This document shows positions 47,571 to 61,759 of a DNA stretch of 64,000 bases, piece by piece. The DNA comes from an uncultured Winogradskyella sp. Its GTDB lineage: Bacteria; Bacteroidota; Bacteroidia; Flavobacteriales; Flavobacteriaceae. The DNA lies in contig NZ_CANMCZ010000005.1 of NCBI RefSeq assembly GCF_947496485.1, positions 62,001-126,000 on the forward strand, read 5' to 3'. Every line of letters begins with the position of its first letter. Position 1 is the first letter of the stretch. Made by a program: the position numbers and the translations under genes. Under the pieces are notes generated by a model. That model was not told where the DNA came from and ran no database searches. It saw nothing but the letters and a program-made list of their open reading frames with translations.

Positions 47571-49391
47571 ATGAAAATCATTAAAAAATTCCCCAATCTT
47601 ATTTTAGTGCTTTTATTCGCTTTGGTGAGCTTAACTTCTTGTCAAAAGGACGATAGTCCTTCGGGAGGTGAACAACAAGAAATTATTCCAGACACGTTTT
47701 CTGAATATTTTGGAAATGAAATTTCAAGGAACTTCCTTGGTAATGTCATTGACACTAATAAAAACCCAATTGAAGGAGTTACAATTACCATTGGTAACGA
47801 AACAGCAACAACAGATATTAATGGTGTATTCATCATAAACAATGTTAATGTAAAAGAGCGTTTTGGATATATTAAAGCAGAAAAAGCAGGATATATTCAT
47901 GGTTCTCGTAGCGTTGTGCCATCTAATGGAACTAATAAGGTAACAATTATGTTATTGGAAGCTACAGTCGTTGGTACAGTGAGTAGTGGTTCTGCTGAAA
48001 CAGTTTCTATGGCTAATGGAAGTTCTGTAAGTTTTGATGGTAATTTTGCTAAAGAAGATGGTTCTGTGTACACTGGTTCTGTTAATGTGATAATGCATCA
48101 CTTAGATCCTGCAGATGATGATATGTCAATGCAAATGCCAGGCATGTTATATGCAGAAAATATAAATGGAGCTGAACGTATGCTACAAACGCTTGGGATG
48201 CTAGCTGTAGAATTGAGAGGTGATAATGGTGAAGATTTAAACTTGGCTGATGGTTCTACTTCTGAAATTAAAATTCCTGTAGATGCTAGTTTAATGGGAA
48301 TGGCACCAGCTACAATTCCACTTTGGTATTTCGATGAAGTCAATGGGTATTGGAAAGAAGAAGGCCAAGCGACCTTACAAGGTAATATGTATGTCGGTAA
48401 TGTATCTCACTTTTCTTTCTGGAATTGTGACATACCAGCTGAGGCTATTACATTATGTGTATCTGCAACAGATGACGATGATAATATTTTAAGTAATCTT
48501 TATATAAGTATTACAAGTGCAACATTTGGATCTCGTGGTGGCTATATTGACGATAATGGAGAAGTTTGCGGATTTGTGCCTAGTGGAGAGACTTTAGAGT
48601 TAGGTGTCTTTAGTTATGGTATCTGCGGAAATGAACCGTTGTATTATCAAGTAATTGGACCTTTTTCAGAAGACTCTAGCATTTCAGTGATTGTACCAGA
48701 AAATGCAGACCTAATTGCTGAAACAGTTATAGGAAGCTTCAATACTTGCGATGATAATGCTGTAACAGATGGTTATGTACAGTTACTTTATGCAGGGCAA
48801 ACATTTACAGATGCTGTAAGTGATGGATCCTTCGAAATAAATTTGTTACGTTGTGAAGAAGATAGCACGTTTAAGATTAAGGCTAGTGATTATGTTAATC
48901 TACAAACTACAGATAGTATAAGTTATACTTTTACAACACCTCTAACTGACATTGGTACTATAAGCGCGTGTAATGCAATCACAGAGTTTATTCAATATAC
49001 TATTGATGATGGTGAAACGATTTTTATAATTGATGGTATTCAAACCGGATTTTCTGAAGTTTCTGATGCTGTTAATGGACCAAGGCTAAACATTAGTGGT
49101 TTTGGAAATAGTACTGGGAACAATACTTGTTTTTATTTGATGGGAGTATTGGATGATACAAATTATGAAGGTACTTACGATACTTTCGATTGGAACGACC
49201 CTAACGATACAGGCTTCAATATACAAGAATGTATAAACATGTCTAATACCAATAATAACATAGTCTACAACCTAACAAGTTTTGGTGGAGTAGGAGAATA
49301 CATCGATATTAATTTTAGTGGTGATTACGAGGACTATGATGGAAATCCGCATACTATTAATGGTATAGTTCATGTATTCAGAGACCAGTAA
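47571..49391 (+). CDS. Large surface lipoprotein, carboxypeptidase-like plus FAM171/CILP-like module (paralogue 1)
   Basis: This 606-residue protein has a lipoprotein signal (LTSCQ, Cys24). Residues about 55-120 are a CarboxypepD_reg-like beta domain (GNVIDTNKNPIEGVTITIGNETATTDINGVF). The next 170 residues include MHHLDPADDDMSMQMPGMLYAENI and ATIPLWYFDEVNGYWKEEGQ...YVGNVSHFSFWNCD, a block reminiscent of animal FAM171/CILP ectodomains (from memory). Two or three further Ig-like repeats follow. The protein should sit on the cell envelope, probably facing outward. A closely related full-length copy lies at 50059. Confidence 0.78.
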   Translation: MKIIKKFPNLILVLLFALVSLTSCQKDDSPSGGEQQEIIPDTFSEYFGNEISRNFLGNVIDTNKNPIEGVTITIGNETATTDINGVFIINNVNVKERFGYIKAEKAGYIHGSRSVVPSNGTNKVTIMLLEATVVGTVSSGSAETVSMANGSSVSFDGNFAKEDGSVYTGSVNVIMHHLDPADDDMSMQMPGMLYAENINGAERMLQTLGMLAVELRGDNGEDLNLADGSTSEIKIPVDASLMGMAPATIPLWYFDEVNGYWKEEGQATLQGNMYVGNVSHFSFWNCDIPAEAITLCVSATDDDDNILSNLYISITSATFGSRGGYIDDNGEVCGFVPSGETLELGVFSYGICGNEPLYYQVIGPFSEDSSISVIVPENADLIAETVIGSFNTCDDNAVTDGYVQLLYAGQTFTDAVSDGSFEINLLRCEEDSTFKIKASDYVNLQTTDSISYTFTTPLTDIGTISACNAITEFIQYTIDDGETIFIIDGIQTGFSEVSDAVNGPRLNISGFGNSTGNNTCFYLMGVLDDTNYEGTYDTFDWNDPNDTGFNIQECINMSNTNNNIVYNLTSFGGVGEYIDINFSGDYEDYDGNPHTINGIVHVFRDQ

Positions 49392-49414
49392 ATAAATTCC
49401 TTGAAAAAAATAAG

Positions 49415-49450
49415 AAAGCCTTCATTCTAACGTTATAGAATGAAGGCTTT
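49415..49450. terminator. Intrinsic terminator after lipoprotein paralogue 1
   Basis: A perfect 15-bp stem (AAAGCCTTCATTCTA and its complement) around a 6-base loop. It ends the first paralogue's transcript before the matching promoter element of the next. Confidence 0.88.
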
Positions 49451-49470
49451 TTAATTTGTGAGAAATTTAA

Positions 49471-49497
49471 CGCAACCTTTTTACAGTTTCAGTATCT
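49471..49497 (+). promoter_or_regulatory. Alternative-sigma promoter candidate of the short paralogue
   Basis: CGCAACC at 49471-49477 and GTATCT at 49492-49497 are 14 bases apart. The identical pair with identical spacing lies before the next paralogue (50003-50029). This matches the layout of ECF-sigma promoters. The ATG follows 36 bases after the -10 part. Confidence 0.6.
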
Positions 49498-49533
49498 TAC
49501 AAGTAGAAACCATCATCAATCATCAATCAAAAA

Positions 49534-49980
49534 ATGAAGTCAGTTACCTCTATATGGCGAGTTATATCTATATGTTTTCTTTTAGTTATTTCTTGTGAAA
49601 AGAATAGTAAACCTCCTAATGAAAATAAACTAAAAGAAAATCCAGAATTTTTAACTGATTATCTAGGCGAAAAAATAAAAAGAGATTTTACAGGTACATT
49701 AACAGATAGTGATAAAAACCCATTAGAAAATGTAACCATCACCATAGGAAATAAAACTTCTACGACTGCAATTGATGGTGATTTTTATTTAAGAAACGCT
49801 GATGTAAATACCAATTTCGCTTATATAGAATTTAAAAAAGAAGGCTATAAAGATTATGCTATAAGTATGAAGCCTGTAGACTCAATTAATGAGTTGACTA
49901 TTGTACTACTAGAAGAAAGTGAGCTATGCTTATTTTGGTTTTGTAAACACAACCACAATCTGCCAAATTCTAAAAATTAA
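49534..49980 (+). CDS. Short lipoprotein, truncated paralogue of its neighbours
   Basis: This 148-residue lipoprotein (Cys21, LLVISCEK) aligns only with the first 130 residues of the flanking paralogues: the linker FLTDYLGEKIKRDFTGTLTDSDKNPLENVTITIGNKTSTTAIDGDF is plainly the same domain. After that the sequence ends in an unrelated Cys/His tail (LCLFWFCKHNHNLPNSKN). It lacks the FAM171-like and Ig-like modules. It may be a decayed copy or a deliberately short member. It keeps its own promoter element. Confidence 0.7.
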   Translation: MKSVTSIWRVISICFLLVISCEKNSKPPNENKLKENPEFLTDYLGEKIKRDFTGTLTDSDKNPLENVTITIGNKTSTTAIDGDFYLRNADVNTNFAYIEFKKEGYKDYAISMKPVDSINELTIVLLEESELCLFWFCKHNHNLPNSKN

Positions 49981-50002
49981 TAAATTTTAATAAGATTTTT
50001 CA

Positions 50003-50029
50003 CGCAACCATTTGTTGATTTCAGTATCT
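50003..50029 (+). promoter_or_regulatory. Alternative-sigma promoter candidate of paralogue 3
   Basis: CGCAACC at 50003-50009, a 14-base spacer and GTATCT at 50024-50029, exactly as upstream of the short paralogue. The flanking bases are also partly shared (TTTCA before GTATCT). The ATG follows 29 bases later. Confidence 0.6.
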
Positions 50030-50058
50030 ATTAAGAAAGAAAACTAAAATCAATCGCT

Positions 50059-51846
50059 ATGAAATCAACGAAATTTATCTCTACCTTATTATTTGTTCTA
50101 CTCATTATTCTTAATGGATGTCAATTAGATGATGGACCTTATGACTACAATAATCAACAAGAAAACATTCCAGATACTTTCTCAGATTATTTTGGTAACG
50201 AAATAAATAGAGATTTTATTGGTAATGTAGTGGACAAATACAATCAACCACTGTCAGGTGTGGCTATTACTATAGGAGGTGAGACCGTGCAAACAGATAT
50301 TAATGGAATATTTATATTGGAGGATGCAATTGTCAATGAACGTTTTGGGTATGTAAAAGCAACAAAAGCAGGCTATTTAGATGGTTCTAGATCAATAGTA
50401 CCTGCAGAAGGCACAAATAAAGTAGAGATAATGCTACTAGAAGCAAATCCTATTGCCACTATAAATAGTGGATCTGCCGAAACTGTTAGTTTAACCAACG
50501 GAAGCTCGGTAAGTTTTGATGGCAATTTTGTTAAGGAGGATGGTTCGCTTTATGACGGGAGCGTCGATGTAATTATGCATCATTTAGACCCAACGGATGA
50601 TGATATGGAAATGCAAATGCCTGGTATGCTATATGCACAAAATGAAGATGGTGCAGAACGTATGCTACAAACCTTAGGAATGCTAGCAGTAGAATTAAGA
50701 GGTTCTGGCGGTGAGGATTTGAATTTAGCAGAAGGGTCTACCTCAGAAATTAAAATTCCTGTAGATGCAAGTCTAATGAGTATGGCACCTGCAACCATAC
50801 CTCTTTGGTATTTTGATGAAATCAATGGGTTTTGGAAGGAAGAAGGCCAAGCTATTTTACAGGGTAACTTTTATGTGGGTATTGTAAGCCATTTCTCATT
50901 TTGGAATTGCGATATACCAGCTGAAGCAATAACGCTATGTGTCATAGTAACAGATGCTGAAAACAATCCTATTAATTATTTAACCATTAATATTACTAGT
51001 TCTGTATTTGGTACAAGGAATGGATTTACGAATGAAAGAGGTGTGGTCTGCGGGCTTGTACCAAGTAATGAAACACTTATACTTGAAATATACCAAACAG
51101 AAGTATGTGGTGATTTGTCGTTAATTAGTGAAAATATTGGTCCTTTCTCCTCTGATGATACTATTTCAATTGTTATTCCAGATAATGGAAACATATCCAC
51201 TGAAACAATAGTTGGAACAATTAATAACTGCGAAAATGAAAGTATTGAGAATGGCTACGTAATTTATACTCACAACGATAACAGCACATATCAATTAGTC
51301 AGTGATGGAAATTTTGAATTTAACGTCTCAAGATGTACAACTGTAGATACTTTTAGTTTAAGGGCAATCAATCTAGATGCTTCTGAAACAACTAATACTA
51401 CTGAATATGAATTTGATACACCGATTACAAACGTAGGTGCCTTAAATACATGTATTTCTCAAGAAGAATATATTATTTATTCTATTGATAGCACGACAGA
51501 AGTCTTTTTTGAAGATAATATTGATGTTGATTTAAACGAAAATAATTTTACAATTATTAGATTATTTGATAACAGTACAACTTCTAAGTTTTTAGCCGAT
51601 TTGCCAAGTCAAACTGGTAATTATGTCACTTCAAGCACAAATACCATGATTTTCAATTTTGCATATTTGCAAGATGGCTATCTTCAATATATTACGGCAT
51701 CGACTTATGGAATCTCCATAGATGTAACATATATAGGCTCTGGTATTGGGGATTTCATAGATATTGGATTTAATGGTACCTTTTTAGATCCGCAAGGTTT
51801 GTCTCATACCATACAGGGCAATGCACATGTACGAATAGACGAATAA
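50059..51846 (+). CDS. Large surface lipoprotein, carboxypeptidase-like plus FAM171/CILP-like module (paralogue 3)
   Basis: This 595-residue lipoprotein (Cys21, IILNGCQLDD) is homologous along its length to the gene at 47571. It shares the CarboxypepD_reg domain, MHHLDPTDDDMEMQMPGMLYAQ, RMLQTLGMLAVELRGSGGEDLNLAEGSTSEIKIPVDASLM and ATIPLWYFDEINGFWKEEGQ. The C-terminal third diverges more, as expected for a ligand- or partner-contact region. It is predicted on the outer membrane surface. Function unknown; divergence of the distal domains suggests different targets (inference). Confidence 0.78.
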   Translation: MKSTKFISTLLFVLLIILNGCQLDDGPYDYNNQQENIPDTFSDYFGNEINRDFIGNVVDKYNQPLSGVAITIGGETVQTDINGIFILEDAIVNERFGYVKATKAGYLDGSRSIVPAEGTNKVEIMLLEANPIATINSGSAETVSLTNGSSVSFDGNFVKEDGSLYDGSVDVIMHHLDPTDDDMEMQMPGMLYAQNEDGAERMLQTLGMLAVELRGSGGEDLNLAEGSTSEIKIPVDASLMSMAPATIPLWYFDEINGFWKEEGQAILQGNFYVGIVSHFSFWNCDIPAEAITLCVIVTDAENNPINYLTINITSSVFGTRNGFTNERGVVCGLVPSNETLILEIYQTEVCGDLSLISENIGPFSSDDTISIVIPDNGNISTETIVGTINNCENESIENGYVIYTHNDNSTYQLVSDGNFEFNVSRCTTVDTFSLRAINLDASETTNTTEYEFDTPITNVGALNTCISQEEYIIYSIDSTTEVFFEDNIDVDLNENNFTIIRLFDNSTTSKFLADLPSQTGNYVTSSTNTMIFNFAYLQDGYLQYITASTYGISIDVTYIGSGIGDFIDIGFNGTFLDPQGLSHTIQGNAHVRIDE

Positions 51847-51852
51847 AAATTT

Positions 51853-51880
51853 AAAAGCCTTCTCAATTGAGAAGGCTTTT
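51853..51880. terminator. Bidirectional terminator between the lipoprotein cluster and the GLPGLI operon
   Basis: A perfect palindrome (AAAAGCCTTCTCAA and its complement) with A and T runs on both sides. It lies between the convergent lipoprotein gene and outer-membrane barrel gene. Confidence 0.88.
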
Positions 51881-51906
51881 AAGTTTTATAAAGTTAATCG
51901 ATATTT

Positions 51907-54678
51907 CTATAAAGTATAAGTCAACCTAAAAGTAATAAATCGCGGCTGAATAAACGTTTCTGAACTAAATACAGAGATGTTGCCTGCTCCATTACTAATA
52001 TTAGAATCGATATCTAATAGGTTAGAAGCTCTTAGAGAATATTCCCATTTAGCGTCTCTATCTTTTCTATAACGTAAGGATGCATTCCAGGTTTTGAAAT
52101 CTTCAACTTCTCCAGCATTTTCTTGTTCTGTGTATGTGAAGTCTGTTATAAAAGTCACTGAATTCCAGATGTAAGCATCAAACTCAATTGAAGGTGCTCT
52201 TGTAATAAATTTATTAGTATTTGTTCCTTGGTCATTGTTTCTAACTGTGTAACCATAGCGTAATCTTACGTTAGGTGCTTCTCTAAAATTAGTACGAATT
52301 TCTGGTGTATAATTTTGTGTAAAGCTTTCATTAATCGTAGGGTTTGTTCTAGTTTGTATAAATTGGTTAAACTTACTGTAACTAAAGTTAGCTCTTATAC
52401 TTGCTCTTATTTTTCCAAAAGTTCGTTGCACTCTTCCAAATAATGAAGCGTTTTCATCTGCAAACTGTGAGTTGAAAAATGTACTGGTTCTAATAACGCT
52501 TTCAAAATTTGTTAGTGATCTAATTTGATCCTCATTCTTGCTATAATTGAAACCTGCAAACACATTGGTGTAATTAAATAAGTTAAAACTACTATAGAAC
52601 AAACGTATATTGTGTGATAACGCATTTTGCAATTCTAGGTTTCCAAATTGTATGTTATTAAAGTTATTTAGTACTAGACCTTCAGCAATATTAGTAACAT
52701 CAGTAAACGTGTTTGTCATATTGTAATTTAACTGTAGACTTTCACTCTTCTTAAATTGAATACGTGCTTCAAAGTCAGGGAGTACGTTAAAGAAGTTATC
52801 TTCAAAAGTTGTTCCTCCTTGAGTATTTTTATTGCCATAAGCATGAAACGATACACCAGGTGTAAATGTGAATTTCCCTGTTTTAAATCTATAGTGTACA
52901 CCTAAATAAAAGTCTCTAAAACTGTACTCAACATCGTCATTGGTAGCAGATAATAAATTACCATCTAAATCTGTAGTAGTTGGCGTTGGATCTAATCGTG
53001 TACCATCATCCAAAAGTTGAAATATATTAGAATTAAACTTTTGGTTACTCAAAATAGTTCCTAACGTAAGGTTAATATTACTCTTGGCATTCAAAATATT
53101 ATAGTAATCTAATTTGGCGTCTAATTGATTAGATTTAATACGTTGTTCTTGGTTGATATTATAACCAGGCTGTGTTGTATCTAAACCTAAACCTGAAGCT
53201 GTTGTGTCAAAAGTATCATTATCAGGATCTAGTAATGCGTTATAAAAAGGGTCTTCGTCTTTTATTAAATGTTGGGCTTCTAAAGCAAAAATGTTATTTT
53301 CATCTAAGGTGTAGTAATAATTTAAGGTCTGATTAATACTAAATGGCTTAACCTCATTCACTTGATTGGTATTGCCTAAAATAGAGGAGAATAAATTTTG
53401 ACGTTCTTGATCATCTGATATACGACCTAAAAGATCATAGTCTAATTGATTATTGACATTTGGCTTATATGATGCACTTAACTTAGCAATAGCTTGGTTT
53501 GAAGCTTCTCTTCCTCTTGAGACTGTCGCTTCGTCTGGTGGTAAACTTTCAGATTCGTCAATTGGTGTTGTAGGGTCATCTTCGAGTTCGATGTAATCTA
53601 TAAAACTATCTTCGCGTGTTCTTAATCGACTACTGTTATATATTACAAAGCCGCTTAAATCTAAAGCCTTGTTAGGTGAATAACTGAAGTTTGCCGTCGC
53701 TAATTTAGTGATAACTTCTTGCGAGTTTTGAATATTAGTAAGACCACCAAGCCCATTATCTCCAAGGTTTATATTGGTTCCGCTAGTACGGCTGGGTAAT
53801 CTAAAGCCAAATCCACCACCAAAATTTCTTAAATCTCTATTGGTTAGAGCTACTTCACCTATATTATTCATGTCACCAATAATATTAACACTATATTTTG
53901 GACTGTAATAGAATAGCTTTGGCTGAACAAGGTACAATTCGTCATTTGGAGATGGTGCTGTACCAGCACCAGCAGTAACATCACCAAACCAAAAGTTTTC
54001 TTTACCTTCTTTTAATTTAATATTGATGGCAACATTATCTTGATTATTTTGCACACCTCTTAACTGTCCAACCTCTGCATAGTTTCTTAAAACTTGTACT
54101 TTGTCTACAGCATTGGAAGGAATATTTTTAGTCGCTAATTTAGTGTCACCATCAAAAAAATCTTTTCCATTTACCATCAATTTATTGACTGTTTTGCCTT
54201 CAACTTCAATTTGCCCGTCCTCATTAATTTCTACACCAGGCAGTTTCTCTAAGATGTCTTCTAGTTTTCGTTCTGAGCCATTTTTAAAAGAGTCAGCATT
54301 ATAAATTAACGTATCACCTTTTATAGTAACTGGCATTTCGTAAGTTAACTCTACAGTATCTAATGAATTATCTGGTAGTAATTTAAAGTCTCTTGTAATA
54401 TCTACTTCTTCAGTAGTAATTAGTGCTTCAGAAGTTTTTAAACCAATGTAACTTACTTGTAGTTTGTATTTTCCATTTTTGCCAAGAGATAATATGTATT
54501 TACCTTTATTATCTGTGATAGCATAAGACTCTAATGCATTTGTTTCTTGATTGATTGCGATTACATTAGCTAATTCTAACGGTTTACCAATACTATCTTT
54601 TACAACACCTTGCATTTTAATTTGAGCAAAAGAGTTGCCTGTTACTACTAAACATAGTAGTATTAATAATTTTTTCAT
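51907..54678 (-). CDS. Outer-membrane TonB-dependent-receptor-like barrel of the GLPGLI operon
   Basis: This 923-residue protein has a signal peptide (LLILLCLVVTGNSFAQ), a CarboxypepD_reg-like domain (residues 22-100, VVKDSIGKPLELANVIAINQ) and a plug (ILEKLPGVEINEDGQIEVEGKTVNKLMVNGKDFF). A long beta barrel ends in an aromatic RFITFRLTYTL. It resembles the outer-membrane-protein-beta-barrel family seen with GLPGLI proteins and likely moves or exposes a peptide or metal ligand. No SusD partner is present. It is the last gene of a minus-strand run with three GLPGLI genes. Confidence 0.85.
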   Translation of the reverse strand: MKKLLILLCLVVTGNSFAQIKMQGVVKDSIGKPLELANVIAINQETNALESYAITDNKGKYILSLGKNGKYKLQVSYIGLKTSEALITTEEVDITRDFKLLPDNSLDTVELTYEMPVTIKGDTLIYNADSFKNGSERKLEDILEKLPGVEINEDGQIEVEGKTVNKLMVNGKDFFDGDTKLATKNIPSNAVDKVQVLRNYAEVGQLRGVQNNQDNVAINIKLKEGKENFWFGDVTAGAGTAPSPNDELYLVQPKLFYYSPKYSVNIIGDMNNIGEVALTNRDLRNFGGGFGFRLPSRTSGTNINLGDNGLGGLTNIQNSQEVITKLATANFSYSPNKALDLSGFVIYNSSRLRTREDSFIDYIELEDDPTTPIDESESLPPDEATVSRGREASNQAIAKLSASYKPNVNNQLDYDLLGRISDDQERQNLFSSILGNTNQVNEVKPFSINQTLNYYYTLDENNIFALEAQHLIKDEDPFYNALLDPDNDTFDTTASGLGLDTTQPGYNINQEQRIKSNQLDAKLDYYNILNAKSNINLTLGTILSNQKFNSNIFQLLDDGTRLDPTPTTTDLDGNLLSATNDDVEYSFRDFYLGVHYRFKTGKFTFTPGVSFHAYGNKNTQGGTTFEDNFFNVLPDFEARIQFKKSESLQLNYNMTNTFTDVTNIAEGLVLNNFNNIQFGNLELQNALSHNIRLFYSSFNLFNYTNVFAGFNYSKNEDQIRSLTNFESVIRTSTFFNSQFADENASLFGRVQRTFGKIRASIRANFSYSKFNQFIQTRTNPTINESFTQNYTPEIRTNFREAPNVRLRYGYTVRNNDQGTNTNKFITRAPSIEFDAYIWNSVTFITDFTYTEQENAGEVEDFKTWNASLRYRKDRDAKWEYSLRASNLLDIDSNISNGAGNISVFSSETFIQPRFITFRLTYTL

Positions 54679-54759
54679 CTTTTGATTATTTCTTGTTTGA
54701 TTGGTTAATGAAATACGCTTTGTAAGCTTACTTTCATCAAATTAAAATAGATTTAATTT

Positions 54760-55683
54760 TTAGTTTCTTCTACCTCCACCGCGTCCTCCGCGATTTCTAC
54801 CACCATACATTTCGCGCATTTCATTCATTTTTTTGGTGATAATCTCGTTGTATTCTGCCTGAGTAACGACATCTCCTTTTTCTGGCTTTTCAATAGCTTC
54901 CTTCTCTTCAGGATTCATTACAATTTTTGTGCACAAAATTGTAGTTCGGTCAGCATTTATTTCTAAGATTAATCCTGGTAATCCCCAATAATCATCTGGA
55001 CCTTGATTAACAGGTATCTGCACTGTATACCAAGCAACAACTTCTATGGTTTTAGGCACTTCTACTTCACTCATAGGATCGACATCTTTACTAGCTTGGT
55101 CATCAGTTTTTGTGGAATCTTTAGCCTTCTTTCCTTCTTCTTTGTCAGAGTTGTCTCTATCTCTACCACGTCTTGGTCTCATACTTCTCCAATCGAATTC
55201 ATCTACAGTTTTTGTTGCTGTTGCCTTAAAACAAGTGTATTGTCCAATCTGCTTGGTTTCAGTTCCCATTTTCCACTCTAAAGATTTCAATTCATCTTTG
55301 ATTAAAAATTGCTTCCCAAAAAACTCTTGATCTTGGATGAGCTCTTTGCTTTGTACATTCTTATATTGAGGTCCACCTGTTAAACTAGACCCAAAACCAC
55401 CAAAACCTCTTCCACTTCCTGGTGCTTCAAGTTTTTCATCTTCTTTATAAATAGATTCTGTTTTATTAAAAGTAAGTATGTACTCTTTTTCTAAGAAGCT
55501 TTTCATACGCGCTTCTATTTGTTTCTTTCTTTCTGGACTCATTTCGCGACCGCCAAAATCGTCTAAGTTCATAGTTGTCTTAGACATATAGTAGGCTTTG
55601 CCTTGAAAATCTTGCTGAGCAAATGAAATTGAACAAAGGCAAAATAATAGTAATGATGTTAGTTTTAAAAGTGGCTTTTTCAT
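54760..55683 (-). CDS. GLPGLI-family secreted protein, copy 3
   Basis: This 307-residue protein has a signal peptide (FCLCSISFAQQ) and the family signature YWGLPGLILEI. It shares with its paralogues an opening FQGKAYY, an LTFNKTESIYKEDEKL strand, a QFLIKDELKSLEWKM block, and a conserved cysteine pair (GQYTCFKATA and ILCTKIVMNPEEKEA) that may form a disulfide. A charged insert (GRDRDNSDKEEGKKAKDSTKTDDQA) precedes the signature, and the tail is Gly/Arg-rich (GGRNRGGRGGGRRN). Role unknown; always near outer-membrane barrels in Bacteroidota (general knowledge). Confidence 0.85.
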   Translation of the reverse strand: MKKPLLKLTSLLLFCLCSISFAQQDFQGKAYYMSKTTMNLDDFGGREMSPERKKQIEARMKSFLEKEYILTFNKTESIYKEDEKLEAPGSGRGFGGFGSSLTGGPQYKNVQSKELIQDQEFFGKQFLIKDELKSLEWKMGTETKQIGQYTCFKATATKTVDEFDWRSMRPRRGRDRDNSDKEEGKKAKDSTKTDDQASKDVDPMSEVEVPKTIEVVAWYTVQIPVNQGPDDYWGLPGLILEINADRTTILCTKIVMNPEEKEAIEKPEKGDVVTQAEYNEIITKKMNEMREMYGGRNRGGRGGGRRN

Positions 55684-55841
55684 CTTAAATGGTTAATGTT
55701 GTTAGGCAAATGTAAGTTTATAATTTTAAGAGTTTCTTAAAAAAAAGTTACATAAATTGGTTAACAACAATATTAATATAAGCTTAGACTTATTTAGATG
55801 CTAAAGGTTAAATTTGCTTGCGTTAAACTTGTGTTAATTAA

Positions 55842-56684
55842 TTAACCTCTTCTACGCCCACCACGATTATTTCTAAACTCTTTCATTTTCTCAATAATAG
55901 TTTTTTGATATTCCGCTTTGGTAACAACTTTCCCCTTTTCTGGAGCTTCAATTTCAATCGTTTCTTCAGGGTTTAATACTATTTTTGAACATAGCATAGT
56001 GGTATTATCCGCACTCACTTCTAATATCAATCCTGGAAGTCCCCAATATTCTAATGGTCCATGGCCTACTGGTATTTGAGGTGAATACCAAGCTTCAACC
56101 TCTGTCATTTTAATTTCAGAAGCTGTCGAATCGGTTTCTGTATTATTTCTTAATCTATCCCAAGAGAAATTATACCAAGTAAGTTCGTTTGTCGGTATAG
56201 AAGCTGTAGCTTTAAAACAGGTATAGTTTCCGATTTCTTTAGTTTCAGTTTCCATTTTCCATTGTATGTCTTGCAAATTATCTTTAACCAAGAATTGTTT
56301 ACCGTAAAATTCTTGTTCTTGTATTTGAGAATTTGATTTTACATTTTTGTATTGTTCACCTGGAGTAAAATTCTTTCCCCAAGAGTCAGTTGCACCAGAC
56401 ATTGCGTCTAATTTCTCATCTTCATAGAATACAGACTCTTCTTTGTTAAAAGTTAAAACATATGTTTTTTCTAGTCTATTTTTTAGTCGTGCAGCAACTT
56501 GCTTTTTTTGTTCCTCACTTAATCTTGCTCCCCAATTACCAAGCTCCATTGTAGATTTAGAAAAATAATATGCTTTGCCCTGAAATTCTTGGACATTAGA
56601 ATCTACAGTTTTACCTTCATATGTGATAAATGAAAGTAATATTGAGAAAGTCAATACGCTGGTTTTTAATAGGATGGATTTCAT
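55842..56684 (-). CDS. GLPGLI-family secreted protein, copy 2
   Basis: This 280-residue protein has an N-terminal hydrophobic export segment (MKSILLKTSVLTFSILLSFI) and the same architecture: EFQGKAYYFSKS, LTFNKEESVFYEDEKL, QFLVKDNLQDIQWKM, the cysteine pair (NYTCFKATA, MLCSKIVLNPEE) and YWGLPGLILEV. The signal peptide is longer and less canonical than in its paralogues, with residues 22-33 (TYEGKTVDSNVQ) separating it from the domain. The basic tail is short (NNRGGRRRG). It lies 158 bases from copy 3. Confidence 0.85.
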   Translation of the reverse strand: MKSILLKTSVLTFSILLSFITYEGKTVDSNVQEFQGKAYYFSKSTMELGNWGARLSEEQKKQVAARLKNRLEKTYVLTFNKEESVFYEDEKLDAMSGATDSWGKNFTPGEQYKNVKSNSQIQEQEFYGKQFLVKDNLQDIQWKMETETKEIGNYTCFKATASIPTNELTWYNFSWDRLRNNTETDSTASEIKMTEVEAWYSPQIPVGHGPLEYWGLPGLILEVSADNTTMLCSKIVLNPEETIEIEAPEKGKVVTKAEYQKTIIEKMKEFRNNRGGRRRG

Positions 56685-56814
56685 GATAATTAAGGTTTAA
56701 AATTTACTATGTTTAACAATATTATTAAATTATTAAACAAAAGTATTTTAGTTTATCAAAAAATTAACACTATCAATTTGCAACAAGGCAGCATAAAATA
56801 AAGTCTTACAGCCT

Positions 56815-57672
56815 TTAACCACCAATAGTTATTGAGATACCTTCTCCCTCTCTACCTTTTCTTGGTTTGAAACGCTCCATCATTTCTTTAGCCTTCTTAT
56901 CCATGATTTCATCGTACTTTTCTTGATTGACTTCTTTACCTTTTGTTGGTTTTTCAATCACTACCTTATCCTCAGGATTTAATACAATCTTGCTACAAAT
57001 CACAGTAAGTTTACCATCATGTACTTCTAAGATTAGACCTGGTAAACCATGATACATTGCAGGACCATTGTTTACTGGGATTTGAGGTGTGTACCAAGCC
57101 GTTACTACACGTGTTTCCATCTCTGGCTCTTTTTCTTCCTCTTTTTCATCCTCAGCATCACTAGAAAATCCTGAATCATCAAAAACTTCTACTTGTTTTG
57201 TATATGTAGCTTTGTAACATTGATACTCACCTATATACTTAGTGTCTGCTTCAAGTTTCCAATCAATTTTTTCAATATCATCTTTGACTAAGAAAATTTT
57301 TCCCATAGTGTCTTTTTGATCTACGTAGCGTTGATCTTTAGTATTTTTATATAACACATCAGATCCACCTCCACCTCCTACCATGACTACTTGAAATTCT
57401 CCGCCCATGGCTGCTTGTGGTTTATCTAAAGCAACATCTTCTTTATATAAAGATGCTTCTTTACTAAAAGTTAATTGAAAGGTTTTTTGAAACTGTTTTT
57501 TCATCATCTCCATCATTCTGGCATGCATTTCAGAATTCATCTGTGTGCTATCCATTTTAATATCAACACTTCTTTGTGTCTTGTAAGTCGCTACACCTTG
57601 AAAATCTTGTGCATTAACAGTTGTTAAGGTAACTGTTAATGCTAAGATTACTACTCTAATAATTGTTGTCAT
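56815..57672 (-). CDS. GLPGLI-family secreted protein, copy 1
   Basis: This 285-residue protein starts at the ATG at 57672 preceding a signal peptide (MTTIIRVVILALTVTLTTVNAQ); the upstream in-frame Met at 57714 would overlap the DUF6624 gene. Family features are DFQGVATYKTQR, LTFSKEASLYKEDVALDKPQ, IFLVKDDIEKIDWKL, the cysteine pair (EYQCYKATY, VICSKIVLNPED) and YHGLPGLILEV. An acidic insert (SSDAEDEKEEEKEPEMETR) sits before the signature and the tail is Gly/Arg-mixed (RKGREGEGISITIGG). It lies 31 bases from the DUF6624 gene. Confidence 0.85.
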   Translation of the reverse strand: MTTIIRVVILALTVTLTTVNAQDFQGVATYKTQRSVDIKMDSTQMNSEMHARMMEMMKKQFQKTFQLTFSKEASLYKEDVALDKPQAAMGGEFQVVMVGGGGGSDVLYKNTKDQRYVDQKDTMGKIFLVKDDIEKIDWKLEADTKYIGEYQCYKATYTKQVEVFDDSGFSSDAEDEKEEEKEPEMETRVVTAWYTPQIPVNNGPAMYHGLPGLILEVHDGKLTVICSKIVLNPEDKVVIEKPTKGKEVNQEKYDEIMDKKAKEMMERFKPRKGREGEGISITIGG

Positions 57673-57703
57673 TTGATTGAATTTTAAATTAAAATATTTT
57701 CTT

Positions 57704-58630
57704 TTAATAGCCATATTTAGCTTTTGTTAAACTGTCCTTTTTTTCTTGTAACCATATGGGAGGTAAACCTATTGATATTCTATTTTCATTAACTTTTTCT
57801 AGATTGGTAATCATATTAGAATAACTACCATCTGGTTTAGTATAAGTTCCATTAACTTGTGGCTCGCCATTATATAAATAATACTGATCAATTACAGGTC
57901 CCAAAACACTTGGTGAACATTCTCCTTTTTTTATATACTCTTTCAATTTAGGTATAAAATAATTTACTCTAATAGAGTCTGATGTATGCAATAAAATGCC
58001 ATCTATAGATACTGGTGTCTTGTCGATGTTAAAACCACCAATAACTTTTTCATTAGGATACCCGAAGTCATCAAAAATTTCAATGAGTCGTTTAGTATTG
58101 TAATCATCAATTTCTTCTTGTTTTGCTTTCATTTCATCACTTTTCATAAAGCCAGCTTGTGCTCTGTATTTTTGATCATTAGCTTTCATTTCTGCAATTT
58201 CTTGCCTTAAGTCTAAATTTAAACTAGATAGATACTCTTTTCTTAAAGTGTCATAGTTAGCAATTAACTCTTTACCTCCTTCGGAAGCAAATACGTTATC
58301 GAAATTTGAATTCCTTTGCATACTCTCTAATGTAGAACCATTAGCAATTTTCTTTTTCATAAAAACTAATGCCAAATCGTCTTTTTTCAAAATAGCACAT
58401 GTTTCAGCAAAATTAGAAATCTCATAATACATTTGGGTGTTAATGGGCACACAAGAGTAAAAAGCAGACTGATACAATTCAAAAGCTTTTTCATAATTCT
58501 CGGTCATATATTCCAAATCCGCTTTGTAAATGTTTTGATAATAATCATCTATATAATTCTGCTCGTTAACTTTTTCCTTTTGTAGAAAAGAGTTTAAAAT
58601 AACTAAAAGTATAATTGTAAAATGCTTCAT
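57704..58630 (-). CDS. Secreted DUF6624-like protein heading the GLPGLI operon
   Basis: This 308-residue protein starts at the ATG at 58630, directly before a signal peptide (MKHFTIILLVILNSFL). An in-frame Met 39 bases further up is less likely. The N-terminal half is helical and TPR-like (YEKAFELYQSAFYSCVPINTQMYYEISNFAETC). The C-terminal half (EIFDDFGYPNEKVIGGFNID, NENRISIGLPPIWLQ) matches DUF6624 proteins of flavobacteria. Function unknown. It is the promoter-proximal gene of the minus-strand run, opposite the histidine kinase. Confidence 0.75.
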   Translation of the reverse strand: MKHFTIILLVILNSFLQKEKVNEQNYIDDYYQNIYKADLEYMTENYEKAFELYQSAFYSCVPINTQMYYEISNFAETCAILKKDDLALVFMKKKIANGSTLESMQRNSNFDNVFASEGGKELIANYDTLRKEYLSSLNLDLRQEIAEMKANDQKYRAQAGFMKSDEMKAKQEEIDDYNTKRLIEIFDDFGYPNEKVIGGFNIDKTPVSIDGILLHTSDSIRVNYFIPKLKEYIKKGECSPSVLGPVIDQYYLYNGEPQVNGTYTKPDGSYSNMITNLEKVNENRISIGLPPIWLQEKKDSLTKAKYGY

Positions 58631-58689
58631 AAGTTTAATATTTTTATTGATTGATTTCACAAATATCAAACATCATTTTCAATTCTAAA

Positions 58690-58715
58690 GTTAACCAACG
58701 TTAACGTGTGTTAAG
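58690..58715. promoter_or_regulatory. Phased GTTAA direct repeats in the divergent promoter gap
   Basis: GTTAAC, GTTAAC and GTTAAG start at 58690, 58700 and 58710, exactly ten bases apart, one helical turn. They lie 60 bases from the GLPGLI-operon start and 40 bases before the kinase start. Phased direct repeats are the normal binding layout of OmpR-type regulators, which is what the adjacent response regulator is. Confidence 0.5.
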
Positions 58716-58754
58716 CGATTAGTTTTAATACAATTTTACATCTACATTTGAAAC

Positions 58755-60230
58755 ATGAATGATAAATTATACAGATATATATTATACATTATTATCTCTG
58801 TTATTCTTATAACAATAGGAATTCAAGTTTATTGGAACTATAAAAATTACCAAACCAATAAGCAGCAATTAATTAGAGATGTGCAGATAAGTCTTGATAA
58901 AGCTGTAGATGATTATTATGCCAGTTTAGCTAAAGAAACTTCTTTTGCCTTTACAACTAGTGATTCTGTACCACAGCATTTGTTTAAAAACGATTCTAGC
59001 ACATCGTCTTATATAAAATCTTTTGAGAGGAGCTTTGATTCCTTAGATTTTGTTGATATTAAAAATATTGAAGGAGTGCGAGTAGTTAAAGGTTTATCAT
59101 CTGATTCTTTGCGAATTAATTTAACTCAAGATTCATTAAACTTTCATAATATTGAATTGTTAACCACAAAGGTTTTTATTTCATTAAGAAACGATTCTTT
59201 AGATGTTAGAAAAGTGAACAAACTACTTTATGACGATTTAAAAAGAAAGGGTCTAGACCTTGACCATCATTTAGCCTATTACCATTCTATGCCAGATGAA
59301 AATTCGAAACTTTACAAGATGAGGAGTAATCCTAGATTTAGTAAAATTTTTAAAGAGAAGAAATTTAACATTTATGTAAAGTCAAAATCAACGTTTCTTC
59401 CAACAGGAAGCCTCCTCAAATTAGGGTTCTCCAATGAAACTCAAAATATACTAAAACGCAGTATTGTTGGTATTCTAACCTCGATACTATTAGTACTAGC
59501 TGTTATAAGTTGTTTATTCTATTTACTAAAAATTATTAAACATCAGAAGCAATTAGCCGAAGTAAAAAACGATCTTATCAGCAACATTACACACGAGTTT
59601 AAAACACCAATTGCAACAATAGGTGTTGCCTTAGAAAGTATTAATAGCTTTAACGCAATAGAAGATAAAGAGAAGACAAAAAAGTATATTAATATGTCTT
59701 CAGAACAGTTGGGTAAACTTAACATTATGGTTGAGAAATTACTAGAAACAGCAACTTTAGATAGTGATAATTTAGAGTTGAATAAAGAGTCGGTTGATGT
59801 TGTAGAATTATTAAATTCTTTAGTTAATCGTTATAAAATTCAGTTTCCAGAAAAGGAATTCAACACGAGTTTTAAGGTTGAAAGTTTATTAGCTAATATT
59901 GATGTATTTCATTTTGAGAATGCAATAAATAACATTTTAGATAATGCGGTTAAGTATGGAGGGCAAATAATCTCTATTGATTTAATTCCTAAAGCTTATA
60001 TGTTTGATACATTAATTTCTGATAATGGCAATTCATTATCCAAAGCGAATAAAGAACGAATTTTCGAAAAATTTTATCGCGTACCAAAAGGTAATACACA
60101 CGATGTAAAAGGTTTTGGTATAGGGTTATATTATACTAAAACTATTGTAGAAAAACACCATGGTTCTATAACTTTAGATTTAAATAAAAATCTTACGACA
60201 TTTAAAATTACACTTCCAAATGGCAGATAG
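58755..60230 (+). CDS. Sensor histidine kinase
   Basis: This 491-residue kinase has a first transmembrane helix at about 6-25, a large periplasmic sensor region (30-238, QLIRDVQISLDKAVDDYYASLAKET) and a second helix at 240-262. No HAMP domain is visible. The phosphorylated His is H280 in ISNITHEFKTPIATI. The ATPase part has NILDNAVKYGG (N box), ISDNGNSLSKANKERIFEKFYRV and GFGIGLYYTKTIVEKHHGS (G boxes). It partners the response regulator encoded by an 11-base overlap. It is divergent from the GLPGLI operon. Confidence 0.92.
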   Translation: MNDKLYRYILYIIISVILITIGIQVYWNYKNYQTNKQQLIRDVQISLDKAVDDYYASLAKETSFAFTTSDSVPQHLFKNDSSTSSYIKSFERSFDSLDFVDIKNIEGVRVVKGLSSDSLRINLTQDSLNFHNIELLTTKVFISLRNDSLDVRKVNKLLYDDLKRKGLDLDHHLAYYHSMPDENSKLYKMRSNPRFSKIFKEKKFNIYVKSKSTFLPTGSLLKLGFSNETQNILKRSIVGILTSILLVLAVISCLFYLLKIIKHQKQLAEVKNDLISNITHEFKTPIATIGVALESINSFNAIEDKEKTKKYINMSSEQLGKLNIMVEKLLETATLDSDNLELNKESVDVVELLNSLVNRYKIQFPEKEFNTSFKVESLLANIDVFHFENAINNILDNAVKYGGQIISIDLIPKAYMFDTLISDNGNSLSKANKERIFEKFYRVPKGNTHDVKGFGIGLYYTKTIVEKHHGSITLDLNKNLTTFKITLPNGR

Positions 60231-60903
60231 TATAAAATTATTATTAGCTGAAGATGAAGCGGCTTTAGGACAAATTATAAAAGAAAGTCTCGAAACTCGA
60301 GATTTTGAGGTTGTACTTTGCGATAATGGTGAAAAAGCCTTTGAAGCTTACAAATCTGAGTCTCCAGAAATTTTAGTGCTAGACGTAATGATGCCAAAAA
60401 AAGATGGCTTCACTTTGGCAAAAGAGATCAGAACTATTGATGATGCTGTTCCTATAATATTTTTAACTGCAAAATCACAAACGGCTGATGTGGTTGAGGG
60501 ATTCTCAATAGGAGGAAATGACTATCTTAAAAAGCCTTTTAGTATGGAAGAGCTTATTGTTAGAATTCATAATCTTATAAGCAGAACCAAAGTTCAGAAA
60601 ACATCTAAAGTTTTAGAATTGGGTAATTATACATTCAATTTTCCTAAGCAACAATTACAATTTAAAAATGAAGAGCCTTCACAATTAACACATCGTGAGG
60701 CACACTTACTATTTCATCTTATAAAAAATAGAAATGAAGTTTTAGATCGTTCTCTTATACTAAATAAACTATGGGGAACAGATGACTTTTTCTCAGCCAG
60801 AAGTATGGATGTGTTTATTACTAAGCTACGCAAAAGGCTAAAAAAGGATGAGAATATTCAGATTATTAATGTTCGTGGATTTGGGTATAAGTTGACGGTT
60901 TAG
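60220..60903 (+). CDS. OmpR-family response regulator
   Basis: This 227-residue regulator has a receiver domain with acidic pair E11/D12, phospho-acceptor D55 (ILVLDVMMPKKDG), T83 (FLTAK) and K105 (YLKKPF), and a C-terminal winged helix (SQLTHREAHLLFHLIKNRNEVLDRSLILNKLWG, then SMDVFITKLRKRLKKD and INVRGFGYKLTV). It is phosphorylated by the kinase whose gene overlaps it by 11 bases. Its likely site is the phased GTTAA repeat next to the divergent GLPGLI operon (inference). Confidence 0.93.
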   Translation: MADSIKLLLAEDEAALGQIIKESLETRDFEVVLCDNGEKAFEAYKSESPEILVLDVMMPKKDGFTLAKEIRTIDDAVPIIFLTAKSQTADVVEGFSIGGNDYLKKPFSMEELIVRIHNLISRTKVQKTSKVLELGNYTFNFPKQQLQFKNEEPSQLTHREAHLLFHLIKNRNEVLDRSLILNKLWGTDDFFSARSMDVFITKLRKRLKKDENIQIINVRGFGYKLTV

Positions 60904-60976
60904 ACAAGTTAATTTTTTAAAATCAAAAATTACTTTTTACATAAACTGGATCAATTTTTGTACTTTTCTGAATCCT

Positions 60977-61759
60977 ATGCAAAAGCTATTTTATATAATT
61001 TTCTTTTTAAGCTTTACATGCCTTGCCCAAGAACAAATAAAAGCAAGTATTGTAGATTCAACAAAGTTAAAAGCTGAAAGTGTTTTTGGTATTGATACTT
61101 TTGGAACACTCTATTATACAACTGAAGACAACTCTTTTCATAAAAGAACAAAAGATACCACAATTACTTATACTAATTTTCAACTAGGTGAAATCACTTC
61201 AGCAAATACCTTTAATCCGTTAAAAATAAATCTCTTTTATCAAGATTTTAATACGGTTGTAATTTTAGATAATCGATTGGCAGAAATCTATAAAATTGAC
61301 TTTAACATTATTCAGCCATATAAAAACGTCTCTCATGTTTCAACGGGTTTTGATAATACGATATGGGTTTTTAATCAAGATTTGCAACAGCTAGAATTAT
61401 ATGACTACAAAACTAATAAAGTAAGATTGAAAACAGTACCAGTGCAGTCTAGCGTTATTGACTTAAAGAGTGATTACAACAATTGCTATATGCTAACAGA
61501 AAACTATTTATACATTTATAGTTATTTCGGAAGCCTAATTGCAAAATATAAAAACAAAGGTTATGATAAATTGGCTTTTAGTAAAGGTCATTTGGTATTG
61601 AAAATGGAAAATCAACTCTATATATTACCAAAAAATGCTTCTGATATTGAACTCGTAGAACATCCAAAAATGTTAATAAATCAGTTTTTGGTAACCAATG
61701 AAACCTTGTATATTTACGACGATGAAACTCTACGTCAATACCAATTAAAAATAGAATAA
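60977..61759 (+). CDS. Secreted hypothetical protein, probably beta-propeller-like
   Basis: This 260-residue protein has a signal peptide (LFYIIFFLSFTCLAQ). The body is all-beta with Tyr/Asn-rich blades (VSTGFDNTIWVFNQDLQQLELYDYKTNKVRLKT, CYMLTENYLYIYSYFGSLIAKY), consistent with a small propeller. No catalytic motif was recognised. The deoxynucleoside kinase gene follows after 3 bases and the two look co-translated, although no functional link is obvious. Confidence 0.65.
   Translation: MQKLFYIIFFLSFTCLAQEQIKASIVDSTKLKAESVFGIDTFGTLYYTTEDNSFHKRTKDTTITYTNFQLGEITSANTFNPLKINLFYQDFNTVVILDNRLAEIYKIDFNIIQPYKNVSHVSTGFDNTIWVFNQDLQQLELYDYKTNKVRLKTVPVQSSVIDLKSDYNNCYMLTENYLYIYSYFGSLIAKYKNKGYDKLAFSKGHLVLKMENQLYILPKNASDIELVEHPKMLINQFLVTNETLYIYDDETLRQYQLKIE

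Follow-up and report, generated by a model that had tools for sequence, protein, structure and literature searches.

The window analysed here, a stretch of 64,000 nucleotides from an uncultured Winogradskyella sp. (contig NZ_CANMCZ010000005.1, positions 62,001 to 126,000), carries at its positions 51907 to 60903 a locus in which three proteins of the GLPGLI family and an outer-membrane barrel are encoded divergently from a sensor histidine kinase and a response regulator. The seven open reading frames (ORFs) described in an earlier note on this DNA were all found at the same coordinates and on the same strands, and the gap between the five-gene run on the minus strand and the kinase (58631-58754) indeed comprises 124 bases, from the ATG of the DUF6624 gene to that of the kinase gene. 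This kinase-side intergenic DNA also contains an operator, GTTAACnnnnGTTAACnnnnGTTAA, made of three 10-bp repeats, which was absent from the earlier note. The features of the locus are the following:

51907..54678, minus strand: outer-membrane barrel, 923 aa, with a signal peptide recognised by eye and the layout of an Oar-like TonB-dependent transporter
54760..55683, minus strand: G1, the barrel-proximal GLPGLI protein, 307 aa, with a Gly/Arg-rich tail
55842..56684, minus strand: G2, the middle GLPGLI protein, 280 aa, with an Arg/Gly tail
56815..57714, minus strand: G3, the kinase-proximal GLPGLI protein, 299 aa as called, with the tail SITIGG and a likely start at M15 (position 57672, by eye)
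57704..58630, minus strand: DUF6624 protein, 308 aa counted from the first ATG, an accessory member of the run
58660..58667, minus strand: putative -7 box of the minus-strand genes, CAAATATC on the plus strand
58690..58715, no strand assigned: operator of three tandem 10-bp repeats, GTTAACCAAC GTTAACGTGT GTTAAG, the presumed response-regulator site common to both promoters
58743..58750, plus strand: putative -7 box of the kinase, TACATTTG, with the ATG 4 nt downstream
58755..60230, plus strand: sensor histidine kinase, 491 aa
60220..60903, plus strand: OmpR-type response regulator, 227 aa, overlapping the kinase gene

The family identities that had been read from motifs hold, with profile scores over the cut-offs. 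The three GLPGLI proteins reach 171, 159, and 204 bits with the TIGR01200 (GLPGLI) profile, for which the cut-off is 50, and their genes are the only matches in the 4.11-Mb genome to which they belong; the match of the DUF6624 protein to PF20329 is marginal (28.1 against a cut-off of 27). By profile scan, HisKA (271-337) and HATPase_c in the kinase and Response_reg and Trans_reg_C in the regulator constitute a two-component system, and two transmembrane segments recognised by eye bound a periplasmic domain of about 200 aa in the kinase. The regulator resembles that of the RprXY system by profile, scoring 265 bits with NCBIfam RprY; its identification as RprY was rejected, as this is below the cut-off of 370. 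No match was obtained when the window was scanned with Rfam (gathering thresholds) and for tRNAs.

The kinase was searched for in 120 genomes of the family at E <= 1e-60 and in named genome contigs (the best 80 of 113 loci); the related genomes behind the locus counts were found through the kinase, so these counts are not independent. It is present in 42 of the 120 family genomes, and all 42 hold GLPGLI matches. A divergent GLPGLI gene was found among the first three genes upstream in 97/97 kinase loci with at least 1.4 kb of upstream sequence, a barrel was part of the run in 72/72 loci with at least 6.5 kb, and the regulator directly followed the kinase in 110/110 loci (the window and three duplicates included); loci with shorter upstream stretches were left out of the first two counts, and three of the 110, with fewer than 150 bases before the kinase, were left out of the operator count given below. 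The prevailing order in the ORF maps is the barrel, one to three GLPGLI genes, and then the divergent kinase and regulator. After the regulator there usually comes a 260-aa protein that belongs to no Pfam or NCBIfam family, encoded in the window at 60977-61759 on the plus strand, and then a deoxynucleoside kinase-like gene, named by reading its sequence. The co-occurrence of the kinase pair with the GLPGLI run, proposed earlier as a check, is thus found in relatives, and the descriptions of the two-component system as dedicated and of the locus as a self-contained unit gain support from it. A class-wide search with a distant kinase as query detected the kinase in 10 of 296 genomes from three families, with identity to the query down to 38%, and in 10/10 a GLPGLI gene and the operator lie beside it (nine read directly, and the tenth, G119, assessed by the coordinates of the site and the GLPGLI gene beside the kinase, plus its locus L021). 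Five of these ten genomes belong to two other families (f8 and f43). In a further family (f10), the barrel, GLPGLI gene, kinase, and regulator of locus L253 follow each other in this order on one strand, and no more than two of the repeats are in register.

The inclusion of the DUF6624 gene in the module, as originally envisaged, was not borne out, since the slot that it occupies is empty or holds other genes in relatives. In a phmmer search of 113 loci and the window, DUF6624 was confined to the window and to three loci that come from this same place, and its candidacy as a core member was rejected because it is not kept in this slot elsewhere. In Winogradskyella relatives (L036:9504-9875, L043:9504-9878, and others) the slot often contains a secreted-looking protein of about 124 aa, one of which was scanned and gave no significant Pfam match; it contains a DUF4886 gene in L034 and a thioredoxin-like gene, recognised by eye, in L018. 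Judging from these slot contents, the DUF6624 gene is a passenger in a variable slot.

Across loci the operator has the form GTTAAC-nnnn-GTTAAC-nnnn-GTTAA(C/G). Its core, GTTAA-n5-GTTAA-n5-GTTAA, is present in 106/107 usable kinase loci (103/104 after removing duplicates), a count that allows for over-called kinase starts, the starts as called giving 100/107; none of the 5,300 mononucleotide shuffles contained it. Information content is 1.24 bits per column in the spacers, compared with 0.65 and 0.52 in the flanks; the GTTAA letters are fixed by construction. There is one perfect copy in the organism's own genome, and weak copies look like chance because 32 matches with up to two mismatches were obtained there against 49 for a reversed control. 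The 120 family genomes were surveyed with a slightly stricter pattern, the two strands being merged by our own count: the operator was found in 35 genomes at 37 distinct places, 34 of them at a kinase and/or GLPGLI locus, and the reversed control of this pattern matched once. It was detected in 34 of the 42 genomes with the kinase (including G090, where the stricter pattern finds it only away from the kinase) as opposed to one of the 78 without it; this one, G112, is 64% complete and has a GLPGLI gene on the contig that carries the operator.

Loci without the kinase were collected as 36 GLPGLI loci from 35 genomes, namely 34 of the 55 kinase-less GLPGLI-bearing genomes (those with better-scoring matches) and a second locus of the kinase-bearing genome G033. 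None of the 36 has the operator. By a count from the maps, 29 of them occupy the same chromosomal place, next to the 260-aa gene, the deoxynucleoside-kinase gene, or both, and lack the kinase and regulator. The idea that the kinase is essential for the barrel-GLPGLI pair is ruled out by these 36 loci. At least 22 changes in the presence of the kinase were counted on a 125-row tree of the barrel, a number that does not separate gain from loss. The earlier view of a sensor controlling the GLPGLI genes and the barrel is therefore upheld in part: the kinase is tied to both, but the barrel-GLPGLI pair does not need it.

A TAnnTTTG box, which we take to be the Bacteroidota -7 element, starts 28 or 29 nt past the 25-base core in 98 of the 106 site-bearing loci. 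The first ATG follows this box after 4 nt in 88/106 loci, suggesting conserved leaderless or near-leaderless translation of the kinase; by this spacing from putative -7 box to ATG, the 5' end of its transcript would be very short or leaderless. On the GLPGLI side, 84/106 loci have a CAAA[TG][AG]T[CG] box at a distance of 22 nt from the operator. GTTAAC is its own reverse complement and thus suits one site serving two divergent promoters, and direct-repeat sites are usual for OmpR-type regulators. From the position of the operator, its direct-repeat form, and its joint absence with the kinase, we infer that the regulator binds it; it would then activate both promoters. A dedicated, autoregulated two-component switch with an operator common to the divergent promoters is well supported, and we hold this part of the interpretation with considerable confidence.

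The AlphaFold2 model of G3, for which 53 GLPGLI proteins were aligned, reached a pLDDT of 85 and a pTM of 0.79, the C-terminal tail being of low confidence. The conserved cysteine pair reported previously corresponds to Cys152 and Cys226 of this third protein (likely-start numbering) and is complete in 43 of the 53. Foldseek matched the model to the N-terminal domain of PNGase F-II type enzymes (7zgn, E 8e-7) and to EPDR1 (E 3e-4). VIA-align gave a Z of 17.7 for the PNGase F-II domain (rmsd 3.2 Å over 172 residues), followed by a Thermus protein (11.3), VioE (10.8), a sponge carotenoid protein (10.3), EPDR1 (10.0), LolA (9.9), RseB (9.9), and MucB (9.4), with alignments of about 120-155 residues for LolA, RseB, MucB, and EPDR1. 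The proposition that GLPGLI proteins are unrelated to known folds was rejected on the strength of these matches of the predicted model. The N-terminal bowl-like domain of PNGase F-II (PF22252; PDB 4r4x and 7zgn, the latter labelled as a GLPGLI family protein) has the same predicted fold; however, the GLPGLI proteins here stand alone without a glycanase domain, and identity is 14-18%. The sequence link to 7zgn is weak (E 0.0019), and G2 falls just under the PF22252 cut-off (24.9 against 27.6). Weak GLPGLI matches were also observed inside open frames of about 560-579 aa (such as G306:C28, G255:C1, and G199:C7), about the length of PNGase F-II enzymes, as a shared fold would predict.

That the best structural match of the model is to an enzyme of this type might indicate that GLPGLI proteins bind carbohydrate and handle glycans. 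However, removal of the PNGase N-terminal domain, called unique and of function not known, left activity and specificity unchanged (PMC9522356, in excerpt), and neither a SusD lipoprotein, which a SusC/SusD nutrient system would have next to the barrel, nor a glycosidase was found among the ten window proteins scanned (47571-61759). We consider glycan binding very improbable. Likeness to the LolA, LolB, RseB, MucB, and EPDR1 fold lies in the predicted half-barrel (Z about 8-10), whereas identity is 5-13% and no Lol machinery was seen among the ten window proteins. EPDR1, LolA/LolB, and VioE have been described as sharing a fold that has a hydrophobic pocket (PMC6363788 and PMC6608618, in excerpt). 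As for the RseB/RseA-sigmaE system, no sigma or anti-sigma factor is among those ten proteins, the rest of the genome not having been searched. A full-text literature search for GLPGLI, with most subscription journals outside its scope, returned no paper joining the family to a LolA-type fold, and no literature was found under the name Porph_ging.

GLPGLI proteins are widespread, with matches in 97 of the 120 sampled family genomes and in 59 of 198 sampled across the phylum. All three window proteins lie far above the cut-off of this family (TIGR01200/PF09697), which Pfam describes as a protein of unknown function; unlike that general description, the family here goes together with a dedicated kinase and an operator, and falls into two tail classes by position. 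Two genomes of the same order, G131 and G214, have 12 and 13 matches. In six stretches of G214 (L242-L247) the GLPGLI genes are mostly scattered, with no recognised barrel neighbour, and an NPIEL-like motif is often present close to the C-terminus of their products; going by these features, they are perhaps a second subfamily.

The barrel contains an N-terminal CarboxypepD_reg domain (residues 22-102; 44.4 bits against a cut-off of 32.3), a plug-like region, and a barrel region matching PF14905 (29.9 against 27). The Oar layout of CarboxypepD_reg, plug, and barrel is that of TonB-dependent transporters (PMC6434023, in excerpt), from which the window protein differs in a plug below the Pfam cut-off, in matching PF14905, with PF00593 not among its matches, and in having a GLPGLI partner. 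Adjoining the barrel at 47571-51846 on the plus strand are tandem related genes of 606, 148, and 595 aa, lipoprotein-like by eye, the first and last with CarboxypepD_reg matches below cut-off; in many Winogradskyella loci the barrel is flanked by relatives of these genes. Proteins of the LolA fold act as carriers that take lipoproteins outward, and the locus might serve export, the barrel secreting or displaying on the surface a cargo chaperoned by the GLPGLI proteins. In Myxococcus, secretion of the protease PopC depends on Oar, which has this same layout (PMC6434023, in excerpt). However, no conserved cargo gene was seen, the slot beside G3 being variable, and export appears improbable.

The tails of the GLPGLI proteins differ with the position of the gene. 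In the window, the kinase-side copy has a strand-like -IxIGG tail and the barrel-side copy a Gly/Arg tail. Among kinase loci with a barrel and two or more copies, the kinase-proximal copy has a strand-like [IVFM]x[IVF]..G tail in 65/69 and the barrel-proximal copy is Gly/Arg-rich at its end in 63/69; the middle copies are mixed (n=25: 13 Gly/Arg, 2 strand-like, and 10 other). The Gly/Arg tails pointed out earlier are thus real and position-specific across loci. Single copies have the IGG-type tail in 12/13 first-round kinase loci with a barrel and in 12/12 kinase loci of the tree set. Of 8,200 shuffled tails, 385 (4.7%) match the strict pattern. By this strict class, an IGG tail is present in 85/87 kinase loci of the tree set as opposed to 12/38 kinase-less loci, and by a looser class in 92/93 kinase loci with a barrel as opposed to 16/33 without the kinase. 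Tails were compared on the FastTree barrel tree, with median p values over independent pairs; loci without a barrel of more than 600 aa were left out, as were fetched stretches with a GLPGLI score of at most 90 bits or a barrel score of at most 160 bits by our own profiles. In 19 independent pairs differing in the kinase, the IGG tail went with it in 12.0, against it in 0.6, and did not differ in 6.4 (median p 0.0018). In the reverse test, with 19 pairs differing in the tail, the kinase went along in 13.7, against in 0.0, and did not differ in 5.3 (p 0.0001). The Gly/Arg tail, used as a control, showed no association with the kinase (0.2 with, 3.0 against, p 0.25). The suggestion that the tails are tuned to different partners therefore gains support, as the IGG tail tracks the kinase on the tree and the Gly/Arg tail does not.

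Taken together, the locus could be an autoregulated module in which an Oar-type TonB-dependent barrel works with LolA-like periplasmic carriers, one of them perhaps an RseB-like co-sensor; we give this overall reading an even chance of being correct, its conjectural parts being the coupling to TonB, the class of ligand, and the co-sensor function. The kinase would phosphorylate the regulator, which would bind the single operator of three tandem GTTAAC boxes, between and near the two divergent promoters, and activate its own operon at the same time as the genes for the GLPGLI proteins and the barrel. The barrel would act as an Oar-type TonB-dependent transporter, and the GLPGLI proteins, as periplasmic half-barrels of the LolA/RseB/EPDR1 type, would shuttle a hydrophobic ligand (a lipid, or an acylated or otherwise hydrophobic compound) to or from it. 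The claim that the output is such a set of hydrophobic-ligand carriers working for an Oar-type barrel is reasonable and, in our estimation, evenly balanced between right and wrong. The Gly/Arg-tailed copies would work with the barrel, and the IGG-tailed copy on the kinase side may use its flexible C-terminal strand to dock onto the kinase or the signalling path of the kinase, in the way that RseB and MucB dock onto RseA and MucA, and tell the kinase whether ligand is present. By this analogy, GLPGLI proteins might be the Bacteroidota counterpart of RseB/MucB on a histidine kinase instead of an anti-sigma factor, the IGG copy reporting to the kinase and the Gly/Arg paralogues loading or unloading the transporter, so that a duplicated fold would be split under one bidirectional operator; this extension, and with it the co-sensor role of the IGG copy, is bold and quite doubtful.

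Several observations weigh against the carrier and co-sensor reading. Fold similarity by itself shows no function, and no known fold was matched by the periplasmic sensor domain of the kinase (predicted model with pLDDT 72, best Foldseek E 0.26). The plug-like region of the barrel (125-201) matches PF07715 at E 0.003 and 18.5 bits, under the Pfam cut-off of 23.9, and the TonB-box-like LDTVEL motif of the aligned barrels was judged by eye only. The tail pattern was not chosen blind, having been adjusted once the tails had been inspected; the 12 kinase-less loci mentioned above keep an IGG-tailed copy, the kinase loci L098 and L099 lack a strict one, and the single copy of the kinase locus L021 is Gly/Arg-tailed. 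Among single-copy loci alone, the tail went with the kinase in 4.5 pairs and against it in 0.0 (p 0.06), too few pairs. GLPGLI copy number also tracks the kinase, less strongly (7.4 with, 0.5 against, p 0.03). In addition, three operator places in three genomes (L190:9819, L191:10166, and L192:9898) are away from any kinase or GLPGLI locus, so the regulon may in some genera be slightly larger and extend beyond the locus. The operators of L191 and L192 precede proteins of about 187 aa, alike by eye, and that of L190 lies between two genes for proteins of about 810 aa, CarboxypepD-type by eye; these genes are candidates for additional members of the regulon.

Some of these points suit a transport locus without co-sensing, in which the kinase would sense a small external or periplasmic ligand by its own domain of about 200 aa, the regulator would induce an uptake barrel and its GLPGLI partners, and the tail link would reflect an extra copy lost together with regulation. 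The persistence of the barrel and a GLPGLI gene without the kinase at the same locus and the co-variation of copy number agree with this account. However, the tail association exceeds that of copy number (12.0:0.6 against 7.4:0.5 pairs), and the single-copy kinase loci are IGG-type with L021 as the exception in the first-round set. Transport without co-sensing is a possible explanation, somewhat on the improbable side.

Control of GLPGLI genes by two-component systems appears in two papers, each cited here from excerpts. In Riemerella anatipestifer, five GLPGLI genes are among the candidate direct targets of the OmpR-type regulator PhoP, whose motif is TTTAACA, two of them up and three down in the mutant (PMC9603813); however, PhoP has 583 binding peaks, in contrast with the one perfect operator copy found here. 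In Porphyromonas gingivalis, loss of PG0720 (HaeR) lowers the GLPGLI genes PG1492 and PG1908 (PMC8757827), but HaeR is linked to hemin and has sites before 57 genes (PMC3764172), and in these excerpts no GLPGLI gene is described beside it. The Riemerella targets, together with the control of stress responses by RseB and MucB, proteins of the same fold (for RseB as given in PDB titles), and the lipid sensing by the hydrophobic cavity of MucB (PMC7400510, in excerpt), would also fit an envelope-stress response, in which the module would sense damage to the outer membrane and answer it with periplasmic chaperones and a repair or remodelling barrel, with no imported ligand. However, in the same-order genome G214 none of eight GLPGLI genes inspected by eye has the operator within 180 nt upstream. 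To our knowledge, a TonB-dependent-type barrel with a plug-like domain is not a usual repair factor either. A stress response of this kind is unlikely, though it deserves consideration.

GLPGLI, a family of no assigned function, gains a testable role from this locus. With a predicted fold, a barrel as partner, a dedicated regulator and its precise DNA site, and tails of two classes that separate by partner, the family becomes accessible to experiment, and the carrier and co-sensor reading suggests that lipid sensing of the RseB type may feed a histidine kinase.

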